A stretch of 46,919 nucleotides of DNA, taken from positions 1 through 46,919 of the forward strand of contig OMIX01000056.1 of NCBI GenBank assembly GCA_900299195.1, given 5' to 3'. The notes beneath the pieces were generated by a model, which worked only from the letters and a program-made list of their open reading frames with translations, was not told where the DNA came from and ran no database searches. Within the stretch, counting starts at the first letter, position 1. Each line of letters begins with the position of its first letter. A program made the translations under genes and the position numbers. The DNA is from Deltaproteobacteria bacterium (lineage in GTDB: Bacteria; Bdellovibrionota; FAC87; UBA2466). Below, piece by piece: positions 2,160-40,450 of the stretch.

Positions 2160-2188
2160 TTGACAACCTGTGTTTAACCCCTTTTACT
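2160..2188 (+). promoter_or_regulatory. Candidate sigma-70 promoter of the liv operon
   Basis: A perfect TTGACA (2160-2165) is followed after 17 bp by TTTACT (2183-2188, 4 of 6 matches to TATAAT). It lies 34 bp before the ATG of the substrate-binding protein gene, leaving room for a leader that contains the GGGAG ribosome site near 2208. Judged by eye only. Confidence 0.5.
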
Positions 2189-2221
2189 ACCTCAAGCATT
2201 GTAATTTGGGAGAAAAATTAA

Positions 2222-3412
2222 ATGATCACTTAAGCAAGCCGAACGACTGTTAAAATCCTCTCTTTTGTAGGATGTGTCTTATTCATTTTAAATTCAGGTT
2301 GTGTCAAAAAAGATGGCACTACGGGAGGTTCTTCTTCAAATGTTGCCACGGGAAATGAAATTCTAGTGGGAGAATTTGGGTCGATGACCGGATCCGAGAG
2401 CACATTCGGTGTTTCTACTCATAAAGGTATTTTGATGGCGCTTGATGAAGTCAATAAAGCGGGTGGAGTTAAGGGTAAGAAAATTCAGTTAAAAAATTAC
2501 GATGACCAGGGGCAAGCTTCTGAAGCAGTGACTATCGTGACGAAGTTGATCACGCAAGATAAAGTCAGTCTGCTTTTAGGTGAAGTAGCAAGTTCCCGTT
2601 CCATTGCTGCTGGAGCTGTGGCGCAACAATATAAAGTTCCAATGGTGAGTCCTTCGAGCACCAATCCTAAAGTAACTCAAGTGGGTGATTACATCTTTAG
2701 AGTTTGTTTTATCGACCCATTTCAAGGCTCTGTGATGGCCAGATTTGCTATTAACAATTTGAAACTTAAAAAAGCAGCTGTGTTCCGTGATATCAAAGCT
2801 GATTACAGTGTGGGCTTAGCCAACTTTTTCGTCGATGAGTACAAAAAAATGGGTGGAGAAGTTGTGGCTGATGTGTCTTACGCCAGTGGAGACATGGATT
2901 TTAAATCTCAGTTAACTTCGATTAAGGGCAAGAATCCCGATGTTTTATTTGTCCCCGGCTATTACACTGAAGTGGGACTGGTAGCTCGTCAAGCCAGAGA
3001 GCTCGGTTTAAAAGCCGTTCTTTTGGGTGGTGATGGATGGGACAGTGAAAAGCTGACTGAAATTGGTGGAGATGCTGTGGTGGGCGGTTATTTTAGCAAC
3101 CATTACTCTCATGAGGATCAGAGCCCAGTGGTTCAAAATTTTGTAGCTCAATTTAAAGCTCGTTATGGGGAAGTTCCTAGCGGCCTTGCAGCTCAAGGTT
3201 ATGATGCAGCTATGGTTGCTGTAGATGCTATGAAGCGGGCCTCTGAGCTTAGTCCTAAAGCTTTTCGCGAGGCTCTGGCTCAAACTAAGAACTTTCAAGG
3301 CGTCACGGGTATGATCACAATCAATGAAGAACGAAATGCGGTAAAACCGGCCGTGGTGTTGAAAGTCGTAGGCCCACAAAAGTTCAGTTATGTGACTACC
3401 ATTAACCCCTAA
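2222..3412 (+). CDS. livK: Branched-chain amino acid ABC transporter, substrate-binding lipoprotein, with an in-frame TAA at codon 4
   Basis: Periplasmic-side solute receptor of a Liv-type importer. The mature part has the type I periplasmic-binding fold signatures: GEFGSMTGSESTFG, GILMALDEVNKAGGVKGK, the SLLLGEVASSRS loop and PMVSPSSTNPKVTQ. A GGGAG ribosome site precedes the ATG at 2222, but the reading is ATG-ATC-ACT-TAA. After this stop the same frame codes for a perfect lipoprotein signal peptide: basic residues, a hydrophobic core LSFVGCVLFILNS and lipobox Cys (codon at 2300), then a Ser/Gly linker. One CAA-to-TAA change would explain it. The next in-frame start, GTG at 2366, would remove the signal and lipobox and give 348 residues. 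Expression is therefore uncertain: nonsense allele, sequence error or non-standard initiation. It heads livKHMGF. Confidence 0.85.
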
Positions 3413-3424
3413 ACTGAGCTTTGG

Positions 3425-4330
3425 ATGCTACAAGCTTTTTTGCAAAATATTATTAATGGTCTGGCCCAGGGCAGTGTCTATGCCCTAGTGGCTCTGGGTT
3501 ACACCATGGTGTATGGGGTACTTCAATTTATCAACTTTGCTCACAGTGATATTTTCATGCTGGGGGCTTTCTCCGGTTATTATTTAGCCAAATGGTTGTC
3601 GCCTGCGATCCAAAATCCCATGCTCCTCATGGTGTCGATTATTTTGGGGAGTATGGCCTTTTGTGTGGCGGTGGGATTAACCGTAGAACGAATAGCTTAT
3701 CGGCCGCTTCGTGGAGCCCCTCGATTGAATGTCCTTATTACTGCGATTGGGGTTTCCTTGTTTTTAGAAAACTTAGGGCAGATTATTTTTGGTGCAGATC
3801 CTCAAGTATTCCCCGCTCTCATACCGACCCGTTCATTACTCGAGGGTGATGGATTGGTACTCAATAATATTCAGCTTACCGTTGTTTTGGTTTCTCTGAT
3901 TCTTATGGGTGTACTTCACTGGATTGTTCGTCACACGAAGCTAGGAATTGCCATGAGAGCTGTTAGCTTTGACATTGAGGTGGCAAACCTCATGGGGATA
4001 CCCACCGATACGATTATCATTTTTACTTTTACAATTGGTTCTTCTTTGGCGGGTGCGGCTTCAATTCTTTATGGTCTCTCTTATCCTAAGATTGAGCCTT
4101 TGTTAGGTATGATGATTGGACTCAAAGCTTTTGTGGCTGCTGTTTTTGGTGGTATCGGAAGTATTTTAGGAGCTGCTGTCGGCGGGATTGTTCTAGGATT
4201 GGCAGAGTCTTTCACTGTTTATTACATTTCTTCCACTTTTAGAGATGCGATTGCTTTTGGTATTCTTATTCTAATTTTATTGTTTAGGCCTGCCGGACTA
4301 TTCGGAACTTTTCGACGAGAGAAAGTATGA
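3425..4330 (+). CDS. livH: Branched-chain amino acid ABC transporter permease LivH
   Basis: Inner-membrane permease that forms the translocation channel with LivM. The 301-residue protein has about eight hydrophobic segments and family signatures near the N-terminus (NGLAQGSVYALVALGYTMVYGVLQFINFAHSD) and in the loop that contacts the ATPase (AVFGGIGSILGAAVGGIVLG). Length fits the family (about 290-310). It starts 12 bp after livK stops and its stop overlaps the livM start by 4 bp (ATGA), showing translational coupling. The ATG at 3425 is the only sensible start. No missing segments seen. Confidence 0.95.
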   Translation: MLQAFLQNIINGLAQGSVYALVALGYTMVYGVLQFINFAHSDIFMLGAFSGYYLAKWLSPAIQNPMLLMVSIILGSMAFCVAVGLTVERIAYRPLRGAPRLNVLITAIGVSLFLENLGQIIFGADPQVFPALIPTRSLLEGDGLVLNNIQLTVVLVSLILMGVLHWIVRHTKLGIAMRAVSFDIEVANLMGIPTDTIIIFTFTIGSSLAGAASILYGLSYPKIEPLLGMMIGLKAFVAAVFGGIGSILGAAVGGIVLGLAESFTVYYISSTFRDAIAFGILILILLFRPAGLFGTFRREKV

Positions 4331-5271
4331 AAGTTTTTCAATCAGCTATTCTAATCGCCGTCGTAGGTATCTTGTATTCTGTTAACTACCTACTGGAAGA
4401 CATGGTTAATCCCTACGTCATTCGAGTGATTGTTAACTGCGGTATCGGAATGATATTGGCCATGAGTTTAAATTTAGTGAATGGTTGCGCTGGACAATTT
4501 TCATTGGGGCATGCCGGTTTTATGGCGGTAGGAGCTTACACGAGTGCGACTCTCACCACTGTCCTTGCATTGAGCCCGTTTTTCAAAACAGATGTCGGAG
4601 TGGGCTGTGCCATTGTGACTGGGGGAGTTGCTGCTGCCTTGGCTGGATATTTAGTGGGATTACCTTCATTGAGATTAAAAGGGGATTACCTAGCTATTGT
4701 CACCTTAGGTTTTGGTGAAATCATTAGAATCATTTTTTTAAATATTGAGGATGTAGGAGGAGCTAGAGGCCTTCCTGGAATTCCACCCAGAGCCAATTTC
4801 TTTTGGGTCTATTTGTGGGTGGTGATAACTTTTATGGCTCTTCTGAGATTGTTAAGATCCAGCTATGGTCGGGCCATTCTATCTGTAAGAGAAAATGAAA
4901 TTGCTGCTGAATCCATGGGAGTAGATATCTCGAAATATAAAATAGTAGCGTTCGTGGTGAGTTCCTTCTTTGCTGGAATTGCGGGGGGATTATTCGCCCA
5001 TTTCCAAAGTTTTATTGATCCTAATTCTTTCGTTTTTAATAAATCGGTGGAAGCTGTCATCATGGTGGTTATGGGCGGGATGGGTAGTTTATCTGGAGCT
5101 ATTTTTGGAGGCATTATTGTCACTTTATTGCCTGAGCTTTTACGTGTGTTCGAGCAGTACCGAATGGTTATTTTCCCTTTGATTTTGATTATTCTCATGT
5201 TGGTTCGGCCCATGGGACTTTTTGGGCATAAAGAAATTTGGGAACTCTTTAAAAAGAAGGCATCGTCGTGA
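4327..5271 (+). CDS. livM: Branched-chain amino acid ABC transporter permease LivM
   Basis: Second inner-membrane permease of the Liv importer, partner of LivH. The 314 residues contain the LivM signatures MSLNLVNGCAGQFSLGHAGFMAVGAY, LPSLRLKGDYLAIVTLGFGEIIRI and VMGGMGSLSGAIFGGIIVTLLPE, with eight to ten hydrophobic helices. It overlaps livH by 4 bp and livG by 4 bp. The C-terminus RPMGLFGHKEIWELF is typical. Function is secure as a transporter subunit; whether the substrate is leucine, isoleucine, valine or another amino acid or amide cannot be told from sequence. Confidence 0.95.
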   Translation: MKVFQSAILIAVVGILYSVNYLLEDMVNPYVIRVIVNCGIGMILAMSLNLVNGCAGQFSLGHAGFMAVGAYTSATLTTVLALSPFFKTDVGVGCAIVTGGVAAALAGYLVGLPSLRLKGDYLAIVTLGFGEIIRIIFLNIEDVGGARGLPGIPPRANFFWVYLWVVITFMALLRLLRSSYGRAILSVRENEIAAESMGVDISKYKIVAFVVSSFFAGIAGGLFAHFQSFIDPNSFVFNKSVEAVIMVVMGGMGSLSGAIFGGIIVTLLPELLRVFEQYRMVIFPLILIILMLVRPMGLFGHKEIWELFKKKASS

Positions 5272-6056
5272 CTGCGGAATCGAATCAAATTTTAGGTGGT
5301 GACTTTAAAGTAGATTCCCTATCCATCGCATTTGGGGGTCTCAAAGCGGTCAATCAATTTAGTCTGCATTTAAAGCCCATGGAACTTCAAGGTTTGATTG
5401 GTCCCAATGGAGCTGGGAAAACGACCTGTTTTAATCTGATCACAGGGGTTTATCTTCCCGATTCTGGTTCGATGGTTCTTAATGGCAAATCGCTAGTGGG
5501 ATTAAACCCTCATCAAATTGCCGAGGCGGGAATTGCAAGAACCTTTCAAAACATTCGACTCTTTGCAGACCTGACCGTTTTAGAAAATGTCATGGTTTCT
5601 TATCACATGAGGGTTGAGTACGGTTACTGGGATGTCTTTCTTAGAACACCTAAGTACTATCGAATTGAAAAGCAATTTAGAGAGAGTGCAAGTGAGCTTT
5701 TGAAAGTCATGGGGCTTGAGAATAGAAAAGAGGATAAAGCCAAGAGTTTGTCGTATGGAGATCAGAGGCGTTTGGAAATAGCCAGAGCTTTAGCGACACA
5801 GCCTAAAGTTTTACTTTTGGATGAGCCAGCAGCAGGATTAAACACTCAAGAAAAAGCGGCTTTGATGGGGACGATTGCAGATATTAGAAATAAGTTCAAA
5901 ACGACTATTTTATTGATTGAGCATGATATGAAACTCGTGATGGGAATTTGCGAGAAAATTACGGTTCTTGATCATGGGGAAATTATTGCCGTTGGAACTC
6001 CGAGGGAGATTCAAGATAATCCAAAGGTTATTGAAGCTTATTTGGGGGTAGGGTGA
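5268..6056 (+). CDS. livG: Branched-chain amino acid ABC transporter ATP-binding protein LivG
   Basis: Cytoplasmic ATPase that powers the Liv importer together with LivF. The 262-residue protein has Walker A GPNGAGKT (about 45-52), the Q-loop region GIARTFQNIRLF, the LivG-specific signature LSYGDQRRLEIARAL in place of LSGGQ, Walker B VLLLDEPAAGLN and the H-loop LLIEHDMKLVM. The GTG start at 5268 overlaps the livM stop by 4 bp (GTGA), the same pattern as the other junctions in this operon. Its end overlaps livF by 4 bp. Confidence 0.95.
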   Translation: MTAESNQILGGDFKVDSLSIAFGGLKAVNQFSLHLKPMELQGLIGPNGAGKTTCFNLITGVYLPDSGSMVLNGKSLVGLNPHQIAEAGIARTFQNIRLFADLTVLENVMVSYHMRVEYGYWDVFLRTPKYYRIEKQFRESASELLKVMGLENRKEDKAKSLSYGDQRRLEIARALATQPKVLLLDEPAAGLNTQEKAALMGTIADIRNKFKTTILLIEHDMKLVMGICEKITVLDHGEIIAVGTPREIQDNPKVIEAYLGVG

Positions 6057-6754
6057 TTCTATCGGTTAAAAATTTGAGCGTGAATTATGGCCTGATTCCC
6101 GCGGTTCGAAACTTATCCATGGAAGTGGCTGTGGGAGAGACCGTTGCTTTGATTGGAGCTAATGGCGCAGGTAAGACGACCATTCTGAGAGCTATTTCGG
6201 GACTTATCAAACCAGCCTCTGGAAGTGTGGTCTTCGATGGACAAGATATTGCGAATGTTAAACCCCATTTGATTGTTCGTAGAGGAATGTCCCATGTTCC
6301 AGAACGTCGAGGTATTTTCGCGAACTTAACGGTTTATGAAAATCTTCTGATGGGTGCATACACTCGTAAACTTCTTCCCGGAGATTTGGATGAGGTTTAT
6401 TCGCTATTTCCGAGATTAGCCGAAAGAAAAAAACAGGTGGCCGGGACTTTATCTGGCGGAGAGCAACAGATGTTAGCTATCAGCCGAGCCTTGTTATCTC
6501 GTCCTAAACTGATGTTATTAGATGAGCCCTCTTTAGGATTGGCTCCACAGATCACTAAATCGATATTTGAGACGATTCAAAGAATCAATAAGTCTGGGAC
6601 GACAGTTCTTTTAGTGGAGCAAAACGCACAAGCTGCGTTGAAGATTGCTCATCGAGGTTATGTGCTAGAAGTTGGGGAGATAACTTTCGCGGACTCTTCT
6701 CAGAAGTTACTGAATAATGATGCGGTCAAGAAAGCGTACCTAGGGGAACACTAA
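6053..6754 (+). CDS. livF: Branched-chain amino acid ABC transporter ATP-binding protein LivF
   Basis: Second ATPase of the Liv importer. The 233 residues have Walker A GANGAGKTT, the LivF hallmark RRGMSHVPERRGIFANLTVYENL, signature LSGGEQQMLAISRAL, Walker B LMLLDEPSLGLAP and H-loop LLVEQNAQAAL. Start is GTG at 6053, overlapping livG by 4 bp. It is the last gene of the plus-strand liv operon and converges on the zinc-ribbon gene, 15 bp apart. No clear terminator hairpin is seen in that short gap. Confidence 0.95.
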   Translation: MILSVKNLSVNYGLIPAVRNLSMEVAVGETVALIGANGAGKTTILRAISGLIKPASGSVVFDGQDIANVKPHLIVRRGMSHVPERRGIFANLTVYENLLMGAYTRKLLPGDLDEVYSLFPRLAERKKQVAGTLSGGEQQMLAISRALLSRPKLMLLDEPSLGLAPQITKSIFETIQRINKSGTTVLLVEQNAQAALKIAHRGYVLEVGEITFADSSQKLLNNDAVKKAYLGEH

Positions 6755-35603: not shown

Positions 35604-35687
35604 TAAGAGGATGCTGAGGTTTACCGTCGGCATGACGATTAAGGCCCCACCGAGGCTTCCAAACTTGGCTTCACCGTTAAGGCCAAC

Positions 35688-36188
35688 TTACTTACCAATA
35701 TTCCAGTAAACGCCGGGTCGGAAAACCATGAGGAAGTCGACACCGGTGCTGGTGGTTATTTCACCAGCTTTAATCACATTTAGGTACAGGTAAGGTCCGG
35801 CAGAGAGCCCCAAATAGGGAATCCACGTGGAGTTGGATTCTAAAGTATAAATGGCTGTCGGAAGAAGTTGTATTGCAGTGACGCTGTTATCCCCGTTGGA
35901 CAAATCTTTGAATTTTCCCCAGAAGTGGATTCCAAAATCTCCTCCCACATAGAGTCTTTTTGAGGCTTCTGTTTGAGTTAAAACGCCGAAGGCCAAGCCC
36001 AATCCTGTTTCTCCCGAATCGGGCAGAATAGGCATTGCAAATCCAGTCGTGAGATGGGTTGTGCTGGTTGAGGTTGAGACTGTTTCAGTTGTGGTGGAAG
36101 CACCACTTCGCCCGGTATGTTTGCCTGCAGCGAAACTTAAATTGGCAACGACCATAAGAGCAGTTACCGTTACGAATAATTTACGCAT
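35688..36188 (-). CDS. Outer-membrane beta-barrel-like protein, apparently cut short by TAA
   Basis: A 166-residue exported protein: Sec signal peptide KLFVTVTALMVVANLSFAA, a Ser/Thr-rich linker (about 25-46), then alternating beta strands such as GLGLAFGVL, KRLYVGGDFGIHFW and WIPYLGLSAGPYLYL, as in small outer-membrane barrels. The TAA at 35690-35688 is followed in the same frame by VGLNGEAKFGSLGGALIVMP and TVNLSILL to a second stop at 35601, a convincing last pair of barrel strands. So the full gene is probably 35601-36188 with one nonsense codon. GGAG ribosome site before the ATG. Exact family and function unknown. Confidence 0.75.
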   Translation of the reverse strand: MRKLFVTVTALMVVANLSFAAGKHTGRSGASTTTETVSTSTSTTHLTTGFAMPILPDSGETGLGLAFGVLTQTEASKRLYVGGDFGIHFWGKFKDLSNGDNSVTAIQLLPTAIYTLESNSTWIPYLGLSAGPYLYLNVIKAGEITTSTGVDFLMVFRPGVYWNIGK

Positions 36189-39076: not shown

Positions 39077-39793
39077 ATGCATATTCCTTTACAAGAAATG
39101 TTGGAATTCTTGTTGCTGATGGCTGGAGCTGCCATCATCGCCTATCCGTTGCTTCTTCTCAACGTTAGCTTAGCTCCCAGGTTAGGTTTAATCGACTGGC
39201 CTAAGGCACGAGGATTAACCGAACATCAAATCCCCATCATCGGCCACAGCCTAGTATTAGTCTCAATTCTTTATTTCAGTGTGGCCAAGGTCTTTTTTCC
39301 TATCAGTGGTTGGTTTCTTAGCACTGCGGTGGTGATTGGAATGATGGGAATGTTGGATGACCGTCAACCTCTGCCTGCTATAGATAAAATGTTTGTACAA
39401 ACGGTGTTTGTAGTTTGTTTGGTGTTGTTTGATCCTAATTTGAGAAACGGAATTAGCGAGCAATTTGGTCCGAATGGAACTTTTCTTTCTATATTCTTTA
39501 TTTTGGGATTGATGAATGCTGTCAATTTTATCGATGGGATCGATGGTTTAGCAGGACTGGTTCTTCTTCTGGGGGGTGTGGGTTTTTTCTTGGTGTCACG
39601 GAACCATTCCGATCTAGGCGTGTTTGTTTCCTATGCTCCAGTGCTTATAGGTTCTCTTATACCCTTTTTGTATCTTAACGTAGCCAAGCGAAAAGGGTTT
39701 TTAGGCAATGTGGGAAGTTATTTTTTTAGTTTTGTATTGGCGTACATGCATTTGAGTGTGCCTATCGAGGCTCACGATGCTTTTTCACGGTAA
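39077..39793 (+). CDS. WecA/MraY-type polyprenyl-phosphate sugar-1-phosphate transferase, N-terminal fragment
   Basis: Integral membrane enzyme family that loads GlcNAc-1-phosphate or MurNAc-pentapeptide phosphate on undecaprenyl phosphate to start a glycan. Residues 1-238 contain the nucleotide-binding GMLDDRQPLP, the NAVNFIDGIDGLAG motif, and RKGFLGNVGS where the family has F-x-G-D-x-G-S: the conserved Asp is Asn here. The frame ends at TAA 39791-39793 but continues without shift in the next entry, so one stop splits a gene of about 457 codons (39077-40450). The catalytic change and the stop suggest decay, although each needs only a single transition. Confidence 0.8.
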   Translation: MHIPLQEMLEFLLLMAGAAIIAYPLLLLNVSLAPRLGLIDWPKARGLTEHQIPIIGHSLVLVSILYFSVAKVFFPISGWFLSTAVVIGMMGMLDDRQPLPAIDKMFVQTVFVVCLVLFDPNLRNGISEQFGPNGTFLSIFFILGLMNAVNFIDGIDGLAGLVLLLGGVGFFLVSRNHSDLGVFVSYAPVLIGSLIPFLYLNVAKRKGFLGNVGSYFFSFVLAYMHLSVPIEAHDAFSR

Positions 39794-39838
39794 TCCATTT
39801 CTGGATTATTCTTTTTAGTACCGATTTCCGATGCGGCA

Positions 39839-40450
39839 ATGGTGCTATTGAGTCGATTGGTGACTCGTCGTTCCCCATTTCAAGCTGATAAAGGACATTT
39901 GCACCATCGTCTTATTCAAACCTCCCTTCCTCTGAGATACATCTTAATTACTTTTGCTATTATCGATTTGACCGGTCTAGTCACTGGCTTTGCCCTCATT
40001 CATAGTGGGGCCATGAGAAAATCGATTTTTCCTGTAGTCACTCTTCTTTCCCATGTGTGTGTTGTGGGTTACATGATAGTTTTCGTTGAAAAAGCCACCA
40101 AACGAAGAGTTCAATCTTTTTTTGAGCACTTAGATTTGGGCCATTCGCTTTATTTTTTGAAATATCGAATTAGTAAAGAAAATGGGGACAAGGTTCCTTC
40201 TTATATGCTCAACCGAATTGCATCCAGAATTAACTCTGAAATCCGAGTCACCGATGTTTGTTATCTGGAAGACCCCGATGTGCTTTTTGTAGGTCTCAAA
40301 CTTCACAATGAAACTTTGAGAAGTATTGCAGTGAGATTAGAAGCTGTCTTTAATTCTGAGAAACTTAAAGTTCATTTAGAAGTTGAGAAAGGGGAGTTTG
40401 TGAAAATGAAAAACCCTGCTTTGAGTTCTCAGCTCAAAAGAGTTAAATAG
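39839..40450 (+). CDS. WecA/MraY-type transferase, C-terminal fragment in the same frame
   Basis: Direct in-frame continuation of the preceding gene: reading from 39794 gives SISGLFFLVPISDAAMVLLS before the first internal ATG at 39839. The fragment holds the family motif FQADKGHLHHRL (cytoplasmic loop, UDP-sugar binding), two more membrane helices and a soluble tail of about 110 residues that is not part of the usual WecA core. The tail ends LSSQLKRVK. Alone, this fragment cannot be active. There is no ribosome site before 39839. Its end overlaps the end of the convergent ABC exporter gene by 8 bp. Confidence 0.75.
   Translation: MVLLSRLVTRRSPFQADKGHLHHRLIQTSLPLRYILITFAIIDLTGLVTGFALIHSGAMRKSIFPVVTLLSHVCVVGYMIVFVEKATKRRVQSFFEHLDLGHSLYFLKYRISKENGDKVPSYMLNRIASRINSEIRVTDVCYLEDPDVLFVGLKLHNETLRSIAVRLEAVFNSEKLKVHLEVEKGEFVKMKNPALSSQLKRVK

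Follow-up and report, generated by a model that had tools for sequence, protein, structure and literature searches.

An early in-frame stop, private to one draft genome, in an apparently ordinary livK lipoprotein gene

Young bacterial pseudogenes can arise from a single nonsense change, and draft metagenome-assembled genomes can carry single-base consensus errors. The gene described here belongs beside the binding proteins of LivK/LivJ-type ABC transporters (PF13458), with which it shares the full domain, the livHMGF operon, and a start, a ribosome site and a lipobox at the orthologous place; it differs from them in that codon 4 reads TAA in a single draft genome. It was found in a window of 46,919 nucleotides, which is one entire contig (OMIX01000056.1) of a draft genome in 128 contigs that total 2.83 Mb. 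We consider it very probable that the gene is a livK of the ordinary lipoprotein kind, with ATG 2222 as its true start, and that the TAA at codon 4 is either private and very young or absent from the organism. The interruption is most probably an ordinary one-base change or a draft error, and not a new protein-making route.

Direct reading of the 5′ end confirmed what the original prediction had described, namely a GGGAG site, the codons ATG-ATC-ACT-TAA and, in an unchanged frame beyond the stop, a signal sequence (ASRTTVKILSFVGCVLFILNSGC) that runs up to the lipobox cysteine (coordinates in Table 1). The lipoprotein signal had also been called perfect; it is indeed in frame, but position -3 of its lipobox (N-S-G-C) is Asn, as is the corresponding residue in the sister genome G001. 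The livK frame is shut immediately upstream of the start codon by TAA 2219-2221, and from the signal sequence onward it is open through to its terminal stop. Past the codon-4 stop the next ATG, GTG or TTG in frame is GTG 2366, which lies downstream of the signal sequence. In the deposited sequence the export signal is not joined to the start, the TAA parting the two. A gene caller that accepts only ATG, GTG and TTG would start livK at GTG 2366 and would yield a receptor without an export signal. Upstream of the gene, the TTGACAAC part of the predicted promoter was also found ahead of livK in the sister genomes G001, G002, G003 and G004.

Table 1. Positions of livK, its operon and the three private in-frame stops in the window
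Feature	Position	Strand	Remarks
Sigma-70-like promoter, predicted	2160..2188	+	TTGACA 2160-2165, 17-base spacer, TTTACT 2183-2188; direct reading
Ribosome binding site GGGAG	2208..2212	+	9 bases ahead of ATG 2222-2224; G001, G002 and G003 have GGGAG or AGGAG in the same position
Orthologous start ATG ATC ACT, then private stop TAA 2231-2233	2222..2233	+	G001 equivalent: ATG ACG ACT TTA
Rest of lipoprotein signal sequence, in frame, up to Cys 2300-2302	2234..2302	+	Same length as in G001 (27 codons, Met to Cys), gapless
Mature LivK, intact, stop TAA 3410-3412	2303..3412	+	Peripla_BP_6 match, sister identity, constraint
livH, livM, livG, livF, all intact	3425..6754	+	Downstream of livK
Second private in-frame TAA	35688..35690	-	Gene for a small exported protein (35604-36188), 28 residues short of its end; Lys (AAA/AAG) in G002, G005 and G004
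Third private in-frame TAA	39791..39793	+	wecA-like glycosyl transferase 4 gene (39077-40450); Leu, Met or Phe in sisters, frames open

The product of livK is covered by the Peripla_BP_6 domain (PF13458; E 2e-62, residues 43-378 of 392) and shows 86-91% identity to its orthologues in sister species. Judged from these sequence comparisons, a full-length domain protein conserved to this degree is beyond what a chance reading frame would give. The solved proteins that LivK most resembles are binding proteins for branched-chain amino acids, while its score against NCBIfam PRK15404 was 178 bits, below the cut-off of 477. The operon had been described as complete, which holds: livH, livM, livG and livF follow livK and are intact, and the binding protein is thus encoded in the context expected of its type. 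By domain and operon, LivK is a LivK-type periplasmic binding protein with a putative branched-chain substrate.

The gene was then set against its relatives. The sister species are uncultured Bdellovibrionales represented by metagenome-assembled genomes (freshwater drafts), one of them from Lake Baikal. In three of these (G001, G002 and G003) livK begins at a matching ATG behind GGGAG or AGGAG and runs on without a stop, which identifies ATG 2222 as the orthologous start and makes the stop private to the window genome. An alignment of homologues had been proposed as a check on the original prediction; once run, it revealed no relative that starts livK elsewhere. Nor was a conserved in-frame stop present in G001, G002, G003 or the more distant relatives. 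Among 30 loci, an in-frame start ahead of the signal sequence is missing only from those of the window and of G004, and in G004 (L005, G004:C106) a two-N scaffold gap falls exactly across the start and signal sequence. No second genome of the same species was returned from GTDB r220, in a search that may pass over the genome of the window itself and its closest neighbours.

The comparison with G001 is codon-for-codon and gapless from the initial Met through the lipobox Cys (27 codons), and codon 4 of G001 is TTA (Leu). A single base change suffices to interrupt the gene, as had been supposed, although the intact codon proposed at the time, CAA, is supported by no relative. On the aligned sequences the stop would have arisen most simply from TTA, a likelier source than CAA; the ancestral codon 4 is not certain, as signal sequences vary fast. 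A compensated pair of indels near codon 4 is unneeded, given the gapless alignment.

Beyond the signal sequence, livK appears to have been kept under ordinary constraint. In protein trees the tip branch of mature LivK in the window genome was 0.012, the shortest of the five sisters, and private changes numbered 5, as against 2 to 20 in the other sisters. Neither relaxed constraint nor other lesions were found in mature LivK, and the protein trees gave no acceleration in livH, livM, livG or livF of the window genome. A long-dead pseudogene was rejected on the short tip branch and the intact frame. Since constraint on mature LivK is normal, the stop should be either very young or a base error.

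Two further private in-frame TAA codons lie on the same contig, one in a gene for a small exported protein, for which no family match was found, and one in a wecA-like gene (Table 1); each of the three genes is otherwise intact. In ~268 kb of sister genes the same comparison detected not a single internal in-frame stop. Roughly 100 kb sampled from other contigs of the window genome was equally free of them; the sole lesion there was a frameshift by one base, in one of the genome's two copies of nuoL. This frameshift lies at about 54,730-54,785 of its contig (L070, G000:C81), and the G002 counterpart of the gene has an open frame. An in-frame-stop scan by coding potential picked out normal gene ends for the most part, together with the wecA-like gene and a UbiB-like kinase gene. 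The latter (L075, G000:C114) carries a frameshift and an in-frame TAG (789-791, - strand) and had no match in the eight relatives searched. The window also has an IS200-like Y1 transposase-domain gene (PF01797; 34755-35411, + strand), of the single-copy-looking REP-associated type, with ggt on one side of it and the gene for the small exported protein on the other.

All three stops fall in the window contig, which makes a consensus problem at the level of the contig the favoured reading. A consensus or assembly error of this kind would mean that the organism carries a sense codon at 2231-2233 and makes LivK normally; we give this about an even chance, and rank it somewhat likelier than a true null. 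It accords with the normal constraint on LivK and with the fact that the assembly gap in G004 falls at the same spot of livK. A generally high error rate would however tend to leave other traces, and private radical missense changes in the contig numbered 8, where about 10-12 were expected from sister rates, and frameshifts relative to sisters were absent, both being low-power tests. A high random base-error rate was set aside, as there was no excess of radical missense, though again at low power.

The alternative is a real and very recent nonsense mutation, which we hold to be possible on a more tentative footing. Here livK would be a fresh null, with the transporter's own receptor lost, or the stop would be segregating in the population. 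The presence of nonsense without an excess of missense agrees with a true mutation, as do the lesions elsewhere in the genome: the nuoL-copy frameshift, and the frameshift and stop in the UbiB-like gene, which is missing in sisters and suggests that real pseudogenes may be present in the window genome. Set against this are the absence of any decay in livK, the clustering of the three lesions on one contig, and their uniform character, all being nonsense and none of the three an indel. We infer from this balance that an error in the contig is a somewhat likelier account of the stop than a recent mutation.

It is improbable that LivK is made from the deposited sequence itself, by readthrough of the TAA, by re-initiation or from a near-cognate codon, for instance ACG 2243. 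The original prediction had offered readthrough, re-initiation and a rare start, and the evidence did not bear them out. Such expression would draw on the signal sequence and mature frame, which stay intact past TAA 2231. Between that stop and the cysteine, however, the frame contains neither ATG nor GTG nor TTG. A rare start was rejected because inspection showed no ribosome site for the early near-cognate codons ACG 2243 and ATC 2255, and because livK of relatives begins at the equivalent of 2222. RNA around the livK start was less structured than shuffled sequences (z +1.45); with no stable structure there, structured re-initiation was likewise discarded. The 41 tRNA genes found, counting an arginine tRNA (read by eye) that is truncated at a contig end, included none that reads a stop codon and thus no suppressor for TAA, in a survey that is incomplete for this draft, some tRNAs being missing (e.g. 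tRNA-Tyr was not seen). Moreover, TAA terminates 61 of the 104 sister-supported genes sampled, ahead of TGA (25) and TAG (18); as TAA is the commonest stop, a change of genetic code was rejected. The in-frame stop of livK is also not kept in relatives, as it would be in a conserved recoding or readthrough gene. Decoding or bypass of TAA at a few sites in the lineage, giving full LivK, WecA-like enzyme and small exported protein despite their in-frame stops, is more improbable still.

Returning to an error or a recent mutation, the two would differ in outcome after the same step, in which one base turns codon 4 into TAA in this single draft genome. With an error, LivK would still be produced as a normal lipoprotein. 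With a real stop, ribosomes would halt after Met-Ile-Thr and the receptor would be either not made or not exported, leaving livHMGF without a receptor of their own; an amino-acid transporter that is otherwise intact would then have been deprived of its receptor very recently in this strain. The locus is chiefly a caution: three in-frame stops on a single contig, where sister genes have none, put the question of its base quality ahead of any biological reading.

A search of the literature on stops in metagenome-assembled genomes found nothing, and one on re-initiation yielded nothing that bears on the present case. The change in livK resembles young nonsense pseudogenes and draft consensus errors in being private and limited to one base, with the remainder of the gene intact and constrained. 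It departs from them in that one contig carries the same stop codon in frame three times with no indel relative to sisters, which is somewhat unusual.
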